Shown here: positions 23,743-32,288 of the stretch, one piece after another
Numbering within the stretch: the stretch's first letter is position 1
How the letters are laid out: each line of letters opens with the position of its first letter
Assembly (NCBI RefSeq): GCF_000264455.2
Contig: NC_017966.1
Span: 434,001-498,000, forward strand
Origin: Tistrella mobilis KA081020-065
Lineage (GTDB): Bacteria; Pseudomonadota; Alphaproteobacteria; Tistrellales; Tistrellaceae
Direction: 5' to 3'
Length of the DNA stretch: 64,000 nucleotides
Position numbers and translations under genes: made by a program
Notes under the pieces: model-generated
Told to the model about the DNA's origin: nothing
Seen by the model: the letters and a program-made list of their open reading frames with translations, nothing else
The model's database searches: none

Positions 23743-24132
23743 TCAAAAGCCGACCCGATCGATCGTGATCGGATCGTAGCGGGCGACATGGTGCTTGTGC
23801 GGCGGCGTGGCGAGAATGTGCCGCGCCCGGTCATCGAGCCCGTCGGTGGCAAGCCGCCGATGCTGCGCGAGGACCACTTCCAGCGCCGTGACGAAGTGTT
23901 CGTAATAGTTCCACTGCTCGGGTCCGAACCCAGGATTGGCCGCCTCCCAATTGCGGATGGCATCGGTCAGCGCTTCCTGAAATTCGCCCCAGGCGAATTC
24001 GCCCGCCTCGCAGGCGGCAATGGCGATGGCGAAGGCCCGCAATTCCCAGGGCTTGTCGAAGGGCACCTGCCCCTCGCGCCGCTCAAGCAGAACGGCCAGA
24101 TCGGTGCTGCAACTTGTCGATACAGGCATCAT
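23743..24132 (-). CDS. Nitrile hydratase accessory (activator) protein
   Basis: A 129-residue protein matching the nitrile hydratase activator family (P14K/NhlE type): VPFDKPWELRAFAIAIAA, the FAWGEFQEALTDAIRNWEA segment and NYYEHFVTALEVVL, which also resembles the N-terminal part of beta subunits. Such proteins carry the metal-loaded alpha subunit and help exchange or insert the cofactor. It is the last gene of the nitrile hydratase operon, 23 bp after the alpha gene, the standard order for cobalt enzymes. Confidence 0.9.
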   Translation of the reverse strand: MMPVSTSCSTDLAVLLERREGQVPFDKPWELRAFAIAIAACEAGEFAWGEFQEALTDAIRNWEAANPGFGPEQWNYYEHFVTALEVVLAQHRRLATDGLDDRARHILATPPHKHHVARYDPITIDRVGF

Positions 24133-24155: not shown

Positions 24156-24767
24156 TCAGGCCGCCCGGGGGAAGCCGGTGCCGATCATCGAATCCCGGGT
24201 AACCAGGGCCGCAAGCTCGTCAGCCCCCATCCCGTCGGTGCCCGCGGGGCGCTGCGGCAGCACCCAGTAGCGGATTTCGGAATTCGAATCCCACACCCGG
24301 ATCTCGGTTTCCTGCGGGATGTCGAGCCGGAAATCCTCTTTCAGGCAGAGGCGCGGCTCGCGGATGATCCGGGCGCGATAGGGCATCGACTTGAACCAGT
24401 TCGGCGGCAGGCCGAGCACGGGCCAGGGATAGCAGGAGCAGAGCGAGCAGACGACGACGTTATGGATCGTATCGGTGTTCTCGACGACGATCATGTGCTC
24501 GCCCTGCAGGCCGCCGATCCCCAGTTCGTGGCAGGCGGCACTGGCATCCGCCAGAAGCCGGGCCTTGAACTCGGGATCGGTCCAGGCCCTGGCCACCACA
24601 GAGGCGCCGAGCCGCGGGCCGACCTCGTTTTCATAGACGGCGGCGAAGCGGTCGACACCCGCTTCCGACATCAGCCCGCCTTCGATCAGGATGGCCTCGA
24701 TCGCCTTCACGCGGGCCGCGATCTCTTCCTCGCTGCGGGGTGTGTAGACCAGATTGACTCGGGTCAT
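24156..24767 (-). CDS. Nitrile hydratase, alpha subunit
   Basis: A 203-residue alpha subunit that binds the catalytic metal and hydrates nitriles to amides. The metal site is [17 protein letters not shown], with Cys107, Cys110 and Cys112; the last two are normally oxidised to sulfinic and sulfenic acids. Ser108 is the residue typical of iron enzymes, whereas the downstream [12 protein letters not shown] and the beta-alpha gene order are typical of cobalt enzymes, so the metal type is ambiguous by motif alone. The start at 24767 has GGGAGGACG in front; the frame is open a little further but without a ribosome site. It lies 14 bp after the beta gene. Confidence 0.95.
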
Positions 24768-24781
24768 GCATCGTCCTCCCT

Positions 24782-25468
24782 TCAGGACCGCGCCAGGGTG
24801 ATGTAGGGCTCCCACATGTCGACATGCTGACATGCGTTGGGATCGGCATGTTCCGCCCCGTAGAGTTCTGACTGGGCGAAACGGACGGTGTAGAGATGTT
24901 CGGCGGTCTCTCCGCCACCGGCGGCGGTGGTGTCGGGAAAGACATGGGCGCCGTGATGCATCACGATCTCGCCGACACGCCCCATGGCATAGCGGGGCCG
25001 GCGATGGTGATGGCGGGGCACCGAGGCATCGACGACGACTTTGTCCCCGATCCGGAATTTCGGCGCCGTCTCGATCTGCCGGGCGGCCGGGAAGCCGTTC
25101 TGGATGGCCCAGTTGGCGAAGTCGACGAGGGCCGGGTCGTCATTCGGCGGCAATGGCGCATCCGGATACTGAAGATAATAGGCCGTCCGCTTGTCCAGCT
25201 CCTCGCGGGTCCAATGACCCTTTTCGCAGCCGATCCGTTCGACCGCATCCACCCAATGCTCGTAATAGAAGGCGGTGAGGTAATGGAGCGGGTGCATCCC
25301 CTCCAGATGCTTGCGGAATTCGTCCAGGCCGAACATCCCGGCCCGGGCCGCGAAGGGGAACAGCGCCCAGGCCGCCTTTTCCCATTCGGCATGATAGGGC
25401 GGCTCCCAGGCGGTGGGCCCGACCGGCCCCATCCCGTCGATACCGCCGAGGTCGTGAATACCGTTCAT
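24782..25468 (-). CDS. Nitrile hydratase, beta subunit
   Basis: A 228-residue beta subunit starting [16 protein letters not shown], the family hallmark, followed by [20 protein letters not shown] in the N-terminal helical part and the SH3-like C-terminal barrel with [23 protein letters not shown] and [15 protein letters not shown]. The arginine in RPRY and other conserved arginines contact the oxidised cysteines of alpha. It is second in the operon, after the CbiM-like gene (37 bp) and before alpha. Confidence 0.95.
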
Positions 25469-25505: not shown

Positions 25506-26174
25506 TCAGGCCGGCGCATGGAGGCGACGCTCCAGCAGCATGCCGTTGCGGAGCGACTTCGCGAGCGCCAGCACGCCCAGATCGATCAGAGGTTCGGCCA
25601 GAATGACCGCCAGATAGGCCGCCCCGAAGGCCGAGACCGACTGCAGAACCGAAAGCTCGACGCCCTGGCCGTAAAACACCCAGAACGCCACCCACGAGAC
25701 GATGCCGGCCTGGTAGGTAGCCGAAAGCGCGAGCACCTGACGATAGGAGAGGTCGACATAGGGCGTGCCCGGCGCGATCAGACGCCGCGCGGCCCAGGAC
25801 AGCGCAAAGAGCGGCACCAGAAGCGTCGTGACGTTCATGCCGTATTGCGGCAGGTCGAAGGGCGCGAAGAGCAGCCCCTGTACCAGCAGCCCCGATGCCA
25901 AGCCGATGGCCGCAGGGGCGAGGCCGAACATCAGAAACAGCGTGGAGCCGAGGATCAGATGAACCTCCGACACGCCGACCGCCGGATGCGGCAGCAGCTG
26001 GAAAAGACCAAGCACGACGGCCGCCGCGATGCCGCTGCGGGCAGCGAGTGACGCGCCGCCGCGGTTTCTGATCTCGTCATAGCCGAATTTGAGCGTCGCC
26101 AGCCCGGCCCCGGCCGCCGTCGCGTATCCCAGGATGGCCTTTGCGCCATCCACGATGCCCGGTTCGATGTGCAT
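25506..26174 (-). CDS. CbiM-like energy-coupling factor permease, probable cobalt/nickel uptake
   Basis: A 222-residue membrane protein with about six hydrophobic segments. It begins MHIEPGIV, the CbiM/NikM start (MHIPDG) in which Met1 and His2 ligate the metal, and carries HPAVGVSEVHLILGS in the region that holds the third ligand histidine (His63/His72). CbiM-type proteins are the metal-specific component of ECF cobalt and nickel importers. No CbiN, CbiQ or CbiO gene is adjacent, so it works alone or shares a module encoded elsewhere. An AGGAGG precedes the ATG. As first gene of the nitrile hydratase operon it most likely feeds cobalt to the enzyme, replacing the NhlF-type transporter known in Rhodococcus. 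Confidence 0.78.
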   Translation of the reverse strand: MHIEPGIVDGAKAILGYATAAGAGLATLKFGYDEIRNRGGASLAARSGIAAAVVLGLFQLLPHPAVGVSEVHLILGSTLFLMFGLAPAAIGLASGLLVQGLLFAPFDLPQYGMNVTTLLVPLFALSWAARRLIAPGTPYVDLSYRQVLALSATYQAGIVSWVAFWVFYGQGVELSVLQSVSAFGAAYLAVILAEPLIDLGVLALAKSLRNGMLLERRLHAPA

Positions 26175-26200
26175 CGTCCGCCTCCTGTTTTTTATTGGAG

Positions 26201-26324: not shown

Positions 26325-26453
26325 AGGAAATATATTTGTATGTCGGTGGATCACCCCTGAACATGTGGGGCGCGCCGCAGATGAGTCCCGCCCCGCCCGC
26401 AGCGCCCCGCACAGGCGAGCCGACAGGCCAATCACTGACCGGGAGCCTTGAAG

Positions 26454-27557
26454 ATGATTCAGGTGGTTTCTATGCTGAAAACAAATCAGCGGGGGCCGGT
26501 GACCATGTCCAAAGTGAATATCGGATTGCTGATCTCGCAAAGCGGCCCGACCGGTATCTGGGCGCCATCCTGTCTGAACGGCGCCATCCTGAGCGCCGCC
26601 GAGACAAACGCCGCCGGGGGCGTCCATGGCCAGGAAATCAACCTGGTCGTGCGAGACGCCGGCTGGGATCCGGCCGTGGCGGCGCGCATCGCCCGGGATC
26701 TGGTCGAGATCGACAATGTCTCGGTGATCGTCGCCATGGTGGCATCCAATGCCCGACGGCGGATCTCGTTCGCGATCGCCGGGCGTGTGCCCTTCATCTA
26801 TACGCCGAACTATGAAATGGACGCGCCCGAACCGACCATTGCGCTCAGCGCCACCGATGACCGCCTGATCCCGCCCATGCTCGCCTGGATCGAACAGCGC
26901 TTTCGCGCGCGCCGGTTCCTGATGATCGGCAGCGACTATCGCTGGCCGCAGCGGACCATGCCGATGACCGGCCGGATGATCGCGGCGGCGGGCGGCACCG
27001 TGGTCGGCATGCTGTCCCGGCCGCTGGATGCGCCGGAAGACTGGGACCGGCGCGCGGTCGAAGACATCCGCAAGGCGGATCCCGACGTCGTTCTCTGCTT
27101 TCTGGTCGGGGATCAGGGCATCCCCTTCTACCGGATCTATGGCGAGGCCGGGCTTGCCGGCAGGATCCCGAGATGCGCCATCGCCACCGACGAAACCATC
27201 CTCACCAGCCTCTCACCCGCAGCGATGGAAGGGCTGTTCGCCGGGGCCTGCTATTTCGCCGCGGCCCGGACTGCGCCCAATACCGCGTTCATGGAACGCT
27301 ACTGGTCGTCCTTCGGAAGCCTGGCGCCGATCCCCAACGCCTATGGGCAATCCTGCTATGAAGGCGTCAGCTTCGCGCTCGGCCTCATCGGCCGGTGCCG
27401 GTCCGCCGACCCTCGCCGCCTGCTGAGCCTGCCGCCGCATGGGGTCGAATATCGGTCCGCCCGGTTCGACACCGCCACCGGCACGCTCTCGCAACGCCTG
27501 CCGGTCTATATCGCGGCGGCAGACGGGTTGTCCTTCGATGTCGTCGCCCGGTTCTGA
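26454..27557 (+). CDS. AmiC-like cytosolic amide-sensing protein (periplasmic-binding fold)
   Basis: A type I periplasmic-binding-protein fold of about 350-367 residues without a signal peptide, so cytosolic. SKVNIGLLISQSGPTGIWAP and NAIL-like ligand-pocket segments, RVPFIYTPNYE and NAYGQSCYEGVSF align it with AmiC of Pseudomonas and NhhC of Rhodococcus, sensors of short amides. It is closely related to the protein at 38976-40013. GGGAG stands 8 bp before the ATG at 26454; the ATG at 26505 is the homology-based alternative. Divergent from the nitrile hydratase operon and 60 bp before a marR gene, it likely senses the amide product and modulates that regulator. Confidence 0.85.
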   Translation: MIQVVSMLKTNQRGPVTMSKVNIGLLISQSGPTGIWAPSCLNGAILSAAETNAAGGVHGQEINLVVRDAGWDPAVAARIARDLVEIDNVSVIVAMVASNARRRISFAIAGRVPFIYTPNYEMDAPEPTIALSATDDRLIPPMLAWIEQRFRARRFLMIGSDYRWPQRTMPMTGRMIAAAGGTVVGMLSRPLDAPEDWDRRAVEDIRKADPDVVLCFLVGDQGIPFYRIYGEAGLAGRIPRCAIATDETILTSLSPAAMEGLFAGACYFAAARTAPNTAFMERYWSSFGSLAPIPNAYGQSCYEGVSFALGLIGRCRSADPRRLLSLPPHGVEYRSARFDTATGTLSQRLPVYIAAADGLSFDVVARF

Positions 27558-27617
27558 GGAGTCTGATATGAATACACCGTCTTCCGGCCCCGCCCGGGAA
27601 ACGACAAGGAAACAGTG

Positions 27618-28076
27618 ATGTCCGGCGAGTCTCTCCAAACGACCATCGGCTTTCTGGTCGCCAATCTGAACCGCCAGCTCGAACGCGAGCTGGAAGAGAA
27701 TCTGCGGCCGCTGAAGCTGCCGGTCGACCAGCTCCGGGTCCTTCAGACGCTGGCCTCCGACGGTGCGGCCGACGGGCTCAGCATGTCGGAAATCGCCCGA
27801 ACGATTCTGATCGATGCCTCGACCCTGACCAAGGTGATCGATCGGATGATCTCGGACAGCCTGGTCTATCGGGCCGCCGATCCGGCCGATCGCCGCCGGG
27901 TCCGCGTGCTGCTGACCCAGAAAGGCGCCGCCCTTCTGAAGACGCTGCGCCCGATGCTCGACCGGCAGGAGGCGGAGCTTCGGCGCACTTTCGACGTGTT
28001 GATGGACGACCCGACGCCGCGGAACTTCGCGGAGTTGCTGGAGCATTTCTGCAAGCGAAGCGCGCCGCCGGCATAG
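27618..28076 (+). CDS. MarR-family transcriptional regulator (nitrile hydratase locus)
   Basis: A 152-residue winged-helix regulator: helical dimer region at the N-terminus (ANLNRQLERELEENLRP), recognition helix around MSEIARTILIDASTLTKVIDRM and the wing DPADRRRVRVLLTQKG. AAGGAAA precedes the ATG. Its genetic partner is the AmiC-like sensor upstream. In Rhodococcus rhodochrous J1 the nhhC/nhhD pair has the same AmiC-like plus MarR-like composition and controls a cobalt nitrile hydratase, which supports the assignment. A paralogous regulator is encoded at 40233-40652 beside the second AmiC-like gene. Confidence 0.88.
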   Translation: MSGESLQTTIGFLVANLNRQLERELEENLRPLKLPVDQLRVLQTLASDGAADGLSMSEIARTILIDASTLTKVIDRMISDSLVYRAADPADRRRVRVLLTQKGAALLKTLRPMLDRQEAELRRTFDVLMDDPTPRNFAELLEHFCKRSAPPA

Positions 28077-28103: not shown

Positions 28104-28391
28104 TCAGACCCCTTCCACCATCAGCACGCGATAGTCGGCCGCCCGATAGCGATGGCCGCGGGCCTCGGCATAGGCCGGGCTGTCATACCAGGCGCGGGCG
28201 GCATCCATGTCGGGGAAGGACAGGATCACCACGCCTTCCGCCGCCGCACCTTCCAGCACCTGATGGGGGCCATAGAAGGCAAGCGGGGTGATCGGGTGGT
28301 CGCCGCGCGCGGCACGGGCGCCGGCGGCATAGTCCTTGAAGGCGTCTTCGTCGCGCATCTTCTCGCGGATCATCACGACATAGGCGGTCAC
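28104..28391 (-). CDS. DUF1330 domain protein
   Basis: A 95-residue ferredoxin-like alpha-beta protein: TAYVVMIREKMRDEDAF, the core PLAFYGPHQVLEGAA and VVILSFPDMDAARAWYDSPAY, all standard for DUF1330. The start is a GTG at 28391 overlapping the stop of the tetR gene (GTGA), with GGAGGAG about 8 bp upstream. The family is small and functionally unassigned; some members resemble ABM-type monooxygenases. It is the last gene of the oxidoreductase-tetR operon. Confidence 0.85.
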   Translation of the reverse strand: MTAYVVMIREKMRDEDAFKDYAAGARAARGDHPITPLAFYGPHQVLEGAAAEGVVILSFPDMDAARAWYDSPAYAEARGHRYRAADYRVLMVEGV

Positions 28392-29014
28392 GGGGCATCT
28401 CCTCCATGGGGGTGGTCTGGTTTCGACATCAAGGTGACCATCCGCCTGAACCCATCGGCAAACTGGCGGCGCGCGACCACCGGATCGGAGGTGATCGCAC
28501 CCGACAGGTAGAACGCGCCGAACCCGATGCAGTAGGCCAGCAGGTCGGTCGTCATATGCCGCAGATTGCCGGTCTGAAGCCGGCCGGCCTCGACGCATTC
28601 CCGAATGGCATCGCGGGCCACGTCGTAGGTGGGCAGATGGATCCCCTCGATCGGGCGCCGGTCCTTCAGCCCGCTCAGCGTGCCGGAAGACAGGAACATC
28701 AGTTCGAAATAAGCGCTCTTCTCGATCGCGAAGTCGAAGACGCGGGCCGCCAGCGCCTCCAGATGGCGGACCGGATCCGCCTCCTGCCGTTCGATCGAGA
28801 GATAGCCTTCATAGATCCGGAAGCCCTCTTCGATCAGGGCACGCATCAGGGCTTCCTTGTCGGCGAAATGGCGGTAGATCGCCATGGGCGACAGGCCGGC
28901 CCGTTTGGCGATTTCCCGCAGGGAAACCGAGCCTGCGCCCATCTCCAGGAAGGCGTCGACGGCAATGGCGAGGATCCGGCTGCGCGTGTCCGACGGAGCC
29001 CCGCCCTCAGTCAT
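28388..29014 (-). CDS. TetR-family transcriptional regulator
   Basis: A 208-residue TetR regulator with the N-terminal helix-turn-helix RILAIAVDAFLEMGAGSVSLREIAKRAGLSPMAIYRHFADKEAL (split over residues 13-56) and a variable C-terminal ligand domain. Its start overlaps the stop of the FAD oxidoreductase gene (ATGA) and its stop overlaps the DUF1330 start, so the three are cotranscribed. Two related operator-like sequences in the divergent region at 30.65-30.79 kb are the obvious binding sites, implying control of itself and of the aldehyde dehydrogenase gene. Confidence 0.88.
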   Translation of the reverse strand: MTEGGAPSDTRSRILAIAVDAFLEMGAGSVSLREIAKRAGLSPMAIYRHFADKEALMRALIEEGFRIYEGYLSIERQEADPVRHLEALAARVFDFAIEKSAYFELMFLSSGTLSGLKDRRPIEGIHLPTYDVARDAIRECVEAGRLQTGNLRHMTTDLLAYCIGFGAFYLSGAITSDPVVARRQFADGFRRMVTLMSKPDHPHGGDAP

Positions 29015-30630
29015 GAGGCATCCTGAGCGAAAACCGGCGCCTTCTTGATCTCATCGACCATGTCCCTGCCAGTGACGGCAGAGGCACAGAGCACACCGCC
29101 GAACAACGCGCCGATGATGCCGTCGCTGGTCACGTCCTGTCCAGTCAGATACAGGCCCGGTACGGGGGTCTGCGCCCGCAGCCAGTCCTGTTCATAGCGC
29201 TGCGGCGAGCTTTCGATCCCCAGAAAATCGCCGTATTGCTGACGGACGAAGGTCTCGTAGGTCAGCGGGGTCGAGACCTCGACATAGCGCACGGCACCGC
29301 GGGTCGCAGGTACCAGGCGATAGAGATCGGCCAACAGGCGCTCCTGCACCTTCGCCTTCATCGCCTCGTAATCGGCGCCGCGCTTCATCCACCGCGTACC
29401 CTGCCAGGGGGCGAAGTGGCGGTAGTCGGTCAGCGCGTGCATCTCGATCGTCGACCGGTTCGGGAAGGTCTCGTTCCATGTCGGGTCCTTCGCCGAGGCG
29501 AAGGTGATGAAGTGAAACGGAAACGGCGCATCGAAATCGACACGGTGCGCCGCCAGGTTGGCGTCGAAATCGGTCCCCGGATGCGCCCAGATATTCGCAG
29601 GCTCCAGACCCAGCGTCGCCGCATCCCCCTCCAGCCCGATATGCAGCCCGACCACGGTATTGGTATAGGTCACGCTCTCGCGCATCCGGTCCAGCCCGGC
29701 CGCCGCACGCGCCTCGGGCGCCATCAGCCGGCCGAAGGTGTTGCGCAGGCCGGCGCCGCTGATCACGACCCCGGCGCGCACCTCTTCCCCCGATGCCATC
29801 ACGACACCGGTCGCCCGGCCGTCCTCGACCAGGATGTGCGCCACCTCGGCACCATGCAGGACCAGCCCGCCCGCCGCCTCGATCACCGGCACGATCGCAT
29901 CCGCAAAGGCCCGGCCGCCGCCATGGGGATAGCTGGCGCCGTTCATATAGTGCTTGGCCAGCATGGCATGCATGGCGAAGGAACTGCGCGCGGGTTCGAT
30001 GCCGTAATCGCCCCAGTTGGCGCAAAGTACCGCGGTCAGTTCAGGATCCGAGGTCAGGTCGGCGATCACTTCGCGGGTCGTGCGCCGGGCGAAATCATGG
30101 AAGGGGCCGGTCATCGCTTCCAGCGCCGGCATCGGCCGGTCTGCCGGATAAGCCTTCAGAGCGAAGAAGGGGGCCGAGGACTTCGATGCCGCCGCCAGAA
30201 GCTCCAGATAGCGGTCGATCGCGGCATGCTCCTGCGGGAACCAGCCGTGGAGCGCGGCCCGATAGGCCTCGACTCCGGCGGGAATGCGATATTCGCGCCC
30301 GGCAATGTTCATCCGGTTGTAGATCGGGGGCAGATGCGCCCAGCGGATCCCACCCCGGGCCGCGTAGTCGAACATCTTCCAGGTCAGCGTCCGTGGCGAT
30401 GCGACGTCGCCGATATAATGCATGCCTACCGTCCAGCGATACCCGGCCCGGTCATAGCTCTGGGTCAGGCCGCCGATCACGGCGTTCTGCTCCAGCACCA
30501 GCATGCGCATCCCCTGCTGCGCCAGGACGGAGGCCACCCCCAGCCCGCCCATGCCGGAGCCGATGACGATGGCGTCGAAGCCATGAGGAATGCCGTCCTT
30601 GCGCCTGTAGGGCCGCCCTTTGGTGTACAT
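29011..30630 (-). CDS. FAD-dependent phytoene desaturase/retinol saturase-like oxidoreductase
   Basis: A 539-residue flavoprotein with the dinucleotide-binding motif AIVIGSGMGGLGVASVLAQQG at residues 20-40, the second FAD segment VLEQNAVIGGLTQSY and a C-terminal GLYLTGQDVTSDGIIGALFGG that binds FAD. The overall layout matches the carotenoid isomerase/phytoene desaturase/RetSat superfamily. No carotenoid biosynthesis genes are near, so a lipid or hydrophobic-compound saturase/desaturase is the safest description. It heads an operon with tetR and the DUF1330 gene. Confidence 0.85.
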   Translation of the reverse strand: MYTKGRPYRRKDGIPHGFDAIVIGSGMGGLGVASVLAQQGMRMLVLEQNAVIGGLTQSYDRAGYRWTVGMHYIGDVASPRTLTWKMFDYAARGGIRWAHLPPIYNRMNIAGREYRIPAGVEAYRAALHGWFPQEHAAIDRYLELLAAASKSSAPFFALKAYPADRPMPALEAMTGPFHDFARRTTREVIADLTSDPELTAVLCANWGDYGIEPARSSFAMHAMLAKHYMNGASYPHGGGRAFADAIVPVIEAAGGLVLHGAEVAHILVEDGRATGVVMASGEEVRAGVVISGAGLRNTFGRLMAPEARAAAGLDRMRESVTYTNTVVGLHIGLEGDAATLGLEPANIWAHPGTDFDANLAAHRVDFDAPFPFHFITFASAKDPTWNETFPNRSTIEMHALTDYRHFAPWQGTRWMKRGADYEAMKAKVQERLLADLYRLVPATRGAVRYVEVSTPLTYETFVRQQYGDFLGIESSPQRYEQDWLRAQTPVPGLYLTGQDVTSDGIIGALFGGVLCASAVTGRDMVDEIKKAPVFAQDAS

Positions 30631-30649
30631 GCATCCTCCCGATTCTTTT

Positions 30650-30669
30650 GTTTATGCTTGTAAACTATC
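30650..30669. promoter_or_regulatory. Upstream TetR operator-like site (proximal to the oxidoreductase gene)
   Basis: TGTAAACTAT (30659-30668) is a near copy of TGTACACTAT in the palindrome at 30767-30790. With the same 4-bp centre it has a degenerate left arm (6 of 10 matches). GTTTA-N6-TAAAC at 30650-30665 is a shorter symmetry over the same bases. Position 20-40 bp upstream of the oxidoreductase start suits repression. Confidence 0.4.
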
Positions 30670-30763
30670 ATACCGGGCCGCTTGGACAAGTCGGATTCTG
30701 AAATCCGGCATCTCTGTCCTCATCCGGTCAAATTCCGCAGACAGATTATCGAATGGCGGCCGG

Positions 30764-30792
30764 TTGCATAGTATACGACTGTACACTATGAC
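30764..30792 (+). promoter_or_regulatory. Promoter with embedded TetR operator for the aldehyde dehydrogenase gene
   Basis: TTGCAT (30764-30769) and TATGAC (30787-30792) are 17 bp apart, and the space between and across them is filled by the palindrome CATAGTATAC-GACT-GTACACTATG (30767-30790; 9 of 10 arm positions pair). This is a textbook arrangement for steric repression by a TetR dimer. Confidence 0.5.
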
Positions 30793-30848
30793 TCGATCGG
30801 AGGAAACCTGAAGCCCCACACAGACCGGACAGAAAGGACGGCCCAGAG

Positions 30849-32288
30849 ATGTCGGACCATCAGCCGAGCCCGACCATGACCATCAACGGTCATGGCGTGA
30901 CCTCATCCCAGGTGATCGAGGTGATCAACCCGGCCACCAGCGAGGTCTTCGCCACCGCCCCGGACTGCAGCCGCGAGCAGCTGGACGCGGCGGTCGAAAC
31001 CGCGCAGCAGGCCTGGGAAAGCTGGCGCCGGACCCCGGTGGCCGAGCGCCAGGCCGCCGTACGTGGCGTCGCCCGTGTACTGCGCGGCCATGCCGACGAG
31101 CTGGCACGCCTGTTCACCGCCGAACAGGGCCGGCCGCTGAAGGCCGCCCGGCAGGAAATCACCGGCGCCGCCGACTGGCTGGATGTCGTGGCCGGCATGA
31201 CCCCGCCCGAGCATCTGACCGAAATGCCGGATGGTCAGCGCATGCATACCCGCCATGTGCCGCTGGGCGTGATCTGCGCGATCGCGCCCTGGAACTTCCC
31301 GGTCAGCCTGGCGATGTGGAAGCTGGGTCCCGCGCTGGTGGCGGGCAACACCGTGGTGCTGAAGCCGTCGCCCTTCACCCCGCTCTGCACGCTCAGAATC
31401 GGCGAGTTGCTGCGCGACGTGCTGCCGGCGGGCGTGCTGAACGTGATCAGCGGCAGCGACCGGCTGGGCCCCTGGATGACCGCGCATCCGGGTTTCGCCA
31501 AGATCTCGTTCACGGGATCCACCGCCACCGGCAAGGCGGTGCTGGCCAGCGCCGCCGCCGATCTGAAGCGCGTGACCCTGGAACTGGGCGGCAATGACGC
31601 GGCGATCGTGATGCCCGATGTCGATGTCGACACGGTCGCCCAGAAGATCTTTTTCGGCGCCTTCTTCAACACTGCCCAGATCTGCGTCGCGACCAAGCGG
31701 CTCTATGTCCACGAAGACATCTACGACGCACTGCGCGACCGGCTGGTTGCGATCGCCCGATCGGTGAAGATGGGTGACGGCACCGAACAGGGCACGGTTC
31801 TGGGGCCGATCCAGAACCGGCGCCAGTTCGACCGGGTGATGGAGCTGCTGGACGACGCCCGGCGGAACGGGCTGACCCTGCTTCAGGGCGCAGACGTGCC
31901 CGCATCGGGGTATTTCATCCCGGTGACCATCGTCGACAACCCGCCCGAGGCATCGCGTGTGGTCCAGGAAGAGGCCTTCGGCCCGGTGCTGCCGATGATG
32001 CGCTTCTCGGATGTCGACGAGGTGATCGCGCGCGCCAATGACAGCCCCTATGGCCTGGCCGGCGCGGTCTGGTCGGCGGACGAGGTGGCGGCGATCGCCA
32101 TCGCCGAACGGCTGGAGACCGGCACCGTCTGGATCAACCAGAACCTCAACATCCGCCCCGACACCCCCTTCGCCGGCCACAAGCAGAGCGGTTTCGGCGT
32201 CGAGAACGGCATGGAAGGACTGCTGGAATATACCGTGCCGCAGGCCATCCATCTGCCGCCGCTCGCGGCGCGGCGCGGCGGGTCCTGA
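30849..32288 (+). CDS. NAD(P)-dependent aldehyde dehydrogenase
   Basis: A 479-residue aldehyde dehydrogenase with IAPWNFPVSLAMWKLGPAL, the cofactor loop SFTGSTATGKAV, catalytic Glu in VTLELGGNDAA and the nucleophile Cys in NTAQICVATKRLYV, plus EEAFGPVLPMMRFSD. It is divergent from the TetR-controlled operon and carries the clearest TetR operator in its promoter. Substrate unknown; the sequence groups loosely with benzaldehyde/aldehyde dehydrogenases active on aromatic or medium-chain aldehydes, but the family is too broad to say. Confidence 0.9.
   Translation: MSDHQPSPTMTINGHGVTSSQVIEVINPATSEVFATAPDCSREQLDAAVETAQQAWESWRRTPVAERQAAVRGVARVLRGHADELARLFTAEQGRPLKAARQEITGAADWLDVVAGMTPPEHLTEMPDGQRMHTRHVPLGVICAIAPWNFPVSLAMWKLGPALVAGNTVVLKPSPFTPLCTLRIGELLRDVLPAGVLNVISGSDRLGPWMTAHPGFAKISFTGSTATGKAVLASAAADLKRVTLELGGNDAAIVMPDVDVDTVAQKIFFGAFFNTAQICVATKRLYVHEDIYDALRDRLVAIARSVKMGDGTEQGTVLGPIQNRRQFDRVMELLDDARRNGLTLLQGADVPASGYFIPVTIVDNPPEASRVVQEEAFGPVLPMMRFSDVDEVIARANDSPYGLAGAVWSADEVAAIAIAERLETGTVWINQNLNIRPDTPFAGHKQSGFGVENGMEGLLEYTVPQAIHLPPLAARRGGS

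Follow-up and report, generated by a model that had tools for sequence, protein, structure and literature searches.

A solitary CbiM-family protein encoded ahead of a likely cobalt nitrile hydratase in Tistrella mobilis is a candidate cobalt carrier

The closest described relatives of the protein analysed here are CbiM and NikM, the group I ECF S-components (structures 5x3x and 4m58) of the CbiMNQO and NikMNQO transporters. In these canonical systems transport is reported to require at least CbiM and CbiN (PMC7689651). Uptake activity in the absence of A and T units has been described for BioY and for two cobalt S-units from bacteria (PMC3246461), and solitary BtuM, from a bacterium that has no ECF module, sustains uptake (PMC6072759). 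Other metal uptake proteins are encoded beside their enzyme, as is NhlF (NiCoT/NicO family) in the cobalt nitrile hydratase (NHase) clusters of Rhodococcus. In Thioalkalivibrio, one cobalt-transporter subunit has been described ahead of the thiocyanate hydrolase genes (PMC5328954), and CbtC to CbtF were predicted as cobalt transporters associated with B12 synthesis in Proteobacteria and Actinobacteria (PMC2667541). In the open-licence literature we found no paper on a link between solitary CbiM and NHase, on the lone family described below, on its division between riboswitch and NHase contexts, or on the absence of its N, Q and T partners. The fold, the CbiM family and the database annotation of individual genes are already known; the family-level case for function without N, Q and O, serving two cobalt sinks, is new.

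In Tistrella mobilis KA081020-065, the lone cbiM gene (25506-26174, minus strand; 222 aa, N-terminus MHIEPG) is the first gene of an NHase operon and has a ribosome-binding site, AGGAGG, at 26181-26186 (minus strand). Behind it, also on the minus strand, come the NHase beta subunit (24782-25468; TIGR03888, 226.5 bits), the alpha subunit with its metal motif (24156-24767; TIGR01323, 289 bits) and an accessory protein homologous to the beta N-terminus (23743-24132). The intergenic gaps are 37, 14 and 23 nt, and because they are so small the four genes are likely to be co-transcribed. The mechanically called alpha open reading frame begins at 24833, inside beta, and the ATG at 24767 is its probable true start. 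Neither the list of open reading frames nor Pfam showed cbiN, cbiQ or cbiO beside cbiM in the operon neighbourhood, in agreement with the initial annotation, which had placed the gene ahead of beta and alpha without these partners.

Two genes lie on the plus strand beyond cbiM. The first, divergent from the operon, encodes a periplasmic-binding-protein-fold protein (26448-27557; Peripla_BP_6, 194 bits) that matches AmiC (1pea/1qnl, E about 1e-22), has no obvious signal peptide and is probably an amide sensor of the AmiC/NhhC type. The second encodes a MarR-family protein (27615-28076; MarR_2, 42.7 bits), probably an NhhD/NhlD-like regulator of the operon. We take this pair to resemble NhhC/NhhD of Rhodococcus J1, and a comparable pair of substrate-binding protein and MarR regulator also flanks the NHase-cbiM locus of a Rhizobium plasmid. 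A TetR regulator, an FAD-dependent oxidoreductase and an aldehyde dehydrogenase adjoin the cluster at 28388-32288, with no evident link to cobalt. The gene order of the operon was the same in a same-species genome (cbiM 99% identical) and in a same-genus genome (cbiM 97% identical). Elsewhere, wherever NHase genes and a linked cbiM share a strand, the order is reversed and cbiM comes after the NHase genes, so its position as first gene is a peculiarity of the Tistrella genus.

The lone protein scored 68.6 bits against Pfam CbiM (PF01891), about three times the curated cut-off of 23.1 bits, with residues 2-209 aligned to positions 1-202 of the 205-position profile. Its AlphaFold2 model had a pLDDT of 84.8 (67 for the N-terminal residues) and matched NikM 4m58 best (Z 20.2, 199 residues, rmsd 2.6, spanning residues 1-210), followed by CbiM 5x3x (Z 17.6); other S-components ranked below, at about Z 12 and lower. 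Searching the PDB directly by sequence, with either the lone protein or its alignment as query, returned no relative, and profile comparison of the lone family with the chromosomal CbiM gave a weak match. Homology to CbiM/NikM therefore rests on Pfam, the fold and an ungapped motif. The initial annotation had called the protein CbiM/NikM-like with an MHI start; the full-length profile match, the predicted fold and the N-terminus bear this out, and no unrelated membrane family matched more closely, as Pfam gave only CbiM and the top fold matches were NikM and CbiM. The protein thus shares with CbiM/NikM the fold, the Met1-His2 start, the third ligand histidine and the Pfam domain, but differs from them in its lack of operon-encoded N, Q and O, its structural alignment identity of about 16-18% and its own family motifs (LPHxPVGVSEVHLILG and DLPQYGMN).

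Residues H2, H72 and N114 were identical in all 106 family sequences, and position 1 was the initiator codon in every complete family copy. The nickel ligands of NikM are presumably Met1, His2 and His67, and the best ungapped offset placed His72 onto His67 of NikM 4m58 and onto H69 of the chromosomal CbiM. By this alignment the third ligand of the putative metal site is His72, equivalent to NikM His67. We propose that the metal would be bound by the amine of the N-terminus together with His2 and His72, in a geometry that stays provisional given the lower confidence of the model at the N-terminus. The site first proposed comprised Met1, His2, His63 and His72; three of these are invariant, while His63 is only near-invariant (98 of 106 sequences).

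To place the protein in a wider context, we used matches to query peptides in 84,980 species genomes, which gave at least 594 stretches, of which at least 486 code for related proteins. Locus analysis was confined to the best 80 of these (59-70% identical). In a class sample of 385 genomes the scores were bimodal, with the lone family at 350 bits or more and canonical relatives at 119 bits or less. By sequence, lone CbiM is a distinct, conserved family separate from canonical CbiM. NHase genes were near cbiM in 21 of the 80 loci, close upstream on the same strand in 20 and on the opposite strand in one (L082), and this linkage was frequent in Alpha- and Gammaproteobacteria and in Actinomycetota. 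On annotated plasmids, family members sit beside nitrile hydratase or B12 synthesis genes and carry the public labels 'energy-coupling factor ABC transporter permease' or 'cobalt transporter'. In a quick tree of NHase-linked and other copies the labels were clustered; parsimony asks for 5 changes, but branches with good support demand no more than 1, and the NHase-linked copies may be one clade or several. An amidase-NHase-accessory-cbiM cluster on an IncFIB/IncHI1B plasmid of Klebsiella (NZ_CP065459.1) lies between insertion sequences, which suggests horizontal spread of the whole unit.

A cobalamin riboswitch was found just upstream of cbiM at 22 of 24 non-NHase loci (11 of 12 that we picked and 11 of 12 from the class sample, none of which adjoins an NHase) and at none of 11 NHase-linked loci. 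Rfam at gathering thresholds found nothing in the window, the whole 64-kb stretch of DNA analysed, so no riboswitch control of the Tistrella NHase operon was seen. This split in regulation is an independent line of functional evidence: apparently, copies that serve B12 synthesis are controlled by B12, and those that serve NHase are encoded alongside it. Lone CbiM is not an oddity of the Tistrella operon but a member of a large conserved family that is NHase-linked or under B12 riboswitches. On Sinorhizobium meliloti pSymB (L096), a riboswitch-led lone cbiM lies between transposases, in a convenient genetic system.

The reading we favour, and consider probable, is that lone CbiM acts as a solitary S-component. 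Produced together with NHase, it would move Co2+ (possibly also Ni2+) through the inner membrane with no help from CbiN, CbiQ or CbiO; its transport activity and cobalt as the ion are what we infer. We searched carrier genomes for the partner proteins. Among the 45 genomes traced from the loci, whose completeness is unstated, 14 gave no CbiQ-family match. Among the 16 genomes of the class sample that have the lone family, 9 gave none, two of them (G242 and G405) assembled into a single contig. Pooled, 23 of 61 carrier genomes had no detectable CbiQ-type T protein by a search for CbiQ alone, and ABC ATPases or unrelated membrane proteins may still act as partners. CbiN was missing in 27 of 30 carrier genomes searched, including all 23 without CbiQ, and was present only in the Tistrella genus. 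No CbiN equivalent for lone CbiM was found. In Marinobacterium lacunae AK27 and Pseudomonas sp. JAI120, NHase and lone cbiM occur with no CbiQ, CbiN or NicO match. Solitary cobalt uptake is supported by the 23 carriers that have neither CbiQ nor CbiN.

The remaining 38 of the 61 carrier genomes hold some CbiQ-family protein, and lone CbiM could instead be an S-component that borrows a CbiQO or CbiNQO module encoded elsewhere, as in the module sharing of group II ECF transporters. This is unlikely, though it is the best of the alternatives. Tistrella mobilis KA081020-065 itself has a riboswitch-led cbiMNQO locus elsewhere in its genome (C1:3252-3254 kb), and its same-species and same-genus relatives also carry CbiMNQO. 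Against borrowing stand the 23 genomes without CbiQ, and many of the weaker CbiQ matches (E 1e-9 to 1e-13, about 200-240 aa) are, from their score and length, probably biotin T proteins. The sole CbiQ of the Tistrella genome (C1:3252324-3252949) is also broken into two frames, as it differs by one base from the cbiQ of the same-species genome, which is open and intact; the frameshift in this assembly is possibly a sequencing or assembly error. The initial annotation had suggested a genome search for orphan cbiQO, and the CbiQ that was found lies inside the complete cbiMNQO operon and is not an orphan. Its proposal of a metal carrier acting without ATPase stays plausible in view of the 23 carriers, but the host does have CbiMNQO elsewhere, a module on which the protein could dock. 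A NicO protein is also encoded in this genome, and the NHase operon itself probably lies on a secondary replicon.

A further alternative is that lone CbiM is no dedicated cobalt importer but carries nickel, or both nickel and cobalt, or acts as a cobalt sensor or chaperone. The best structural matches are NikM structures, CbiM/NikM specificity is unreadable from sequence alone, and a urease cluster lies near one family copy. However, the two recurrent contexts of the family, NHase and B12 riboswitch or B12 synthesis, are both cobalt-related, and we regard this alternative as improbable, somewhat more so than borrowing.

The metal of the NHase was assessed by comparison with solved chains. The alpha subunit scored about 294 bits against Co-type and 197 bits against Fe-type chains, and the beta subunit 242 bits against Co-type and 91 bits against Fe-type chains; in both cases the nearest was the Pseudonocardia thermophila cobalt enzyme. 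The alpha subunit carries the motif CSLCSCY, and among the closest alpha matches was 1ugr, a chain with Ser at the same motif place, which we take to be an engineered variant of the cobalt enzyme. The described signatures are CTLCSCY for Co-type and CSLCSCT for Fe-type alpha subunits (PMC2667541), so that the Ser here is of the Fe type and the Tyr after the motif of the Co type. The accessory protein is P14K/NhlE-like (TIGR03889, 61.5 bits, above the cut-off of 46), and no P47K activator is present in the operon. From these sequence comparisons the metal of the operon NHase is likely to be cobalt. An iron-type or metal-promiscuous NHase with only incidental cbiM linkage has very little probability. 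In its favour are the Ser of the motif and the finding that, of the 140 genomes in the class sample that encode NHase, only the 3 of the Tistrella genus had a lone cbiM next to it among the matches listed. Against it, both subunits lie much nearer to cobalt than to iron enzymes, the Tyr and the accessory protein are those of the Co type, and the linkage turns up repeatedly, on several separate branches and in different phyla. A second NHase in the genome (C1 near 505.9 kb) has CTLCSC and its own accessory protein, with no cbiM match adjacent. Short NHase-alpha-like open frames (C3:395500-396413, C1:1689145-1689297 and C1:2016698-2016856), some of them clustered, resemble NHLP leader peptides of RiPP precursors.

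Like NhlF, lone CbiM is encoded with a cobalt NHase, here a likely one; unlike NhlF, it belongs to another family, matching Pfam CbiM only, with no NicO profile match and no NiCoT signature HxxxxDH. A cobalt route other than NhlF, as initially suggested, is supported for this operon, and no NhlF-like genes adjoining NHase were found among the matches listed in the class sample. The arrangement also resembles the thiocyanate hydrolase locus, where a lone cobalt-transporter subunit accompanies another cobalt-dependent member of the NHase superfamily (PMC5328954); the likeness is one of arrangement alone, and the passage on that gene gives no transporter family and does not take up partner-free transport. 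In a Thiobacillus MAG (L052:6001-8251), lone cbiM is followed by cyanase and methyltransferase genes, an arrangement that fits the reported locus (PMC5328954). By description, the lone family resembles CbtC to CbtF as predicted cobalt transporters associated with B12 synthesis (PMC2667541) and may coincide with one of them. CbtG was also considered as the lone family and was rejected, as CbtG is Rv0256c (PMC4428469).

Lone CbiM also resembles solitary BioY and BtuM, which share the S-component fold and occur in genomes without a T protein (PMC6072759). Its genomic context is likewise linked to its presumed substrate, but that context points to cobalt ion and not to biotin or cobalamin, and lone CbiM is a putative transporter. 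If it acts as a solitary carrier, the N-terminus, His2 and His72 would capture Co2+ on the periplasmic side, and the ion would be released into the cell without ATP, passively down the electrochemical gradient. Metal insertion into NHase, or corrin synthesis, would act as the sink that pulls uptake, and co-expression of cbiM with NHase would let the metal arrive while the alpha subunit and the accessory protein are made. For the family as a whole, the balance tips slightly towards a widespread autonomous CbiM family that imports cobalt by facilitative or secondary transport without CbiN, CbiQ or an ATPase, paired with B12 synthesis and with nitrile and thiocyanate hydratases.

The lone family bears on how solitary S-components move their substrate without an ATP-driven module. 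A metal-specific, riboswitch-controlled family found in genomes without a detectable CbiQ-type T protein offers a clean test of solitary S-components. Lone CbiM is also a possible missing part for the heterologous production of cobalt nitrile hydratases. If the proposed function is true, hundreds of proteins labelled 'ECF ABC transporter permease' could be re-annotated as probable solitary cobalt carriers, and lone CbiM would be an ECF-fold metal transporter that acts as a secondary or facilitative carrier.
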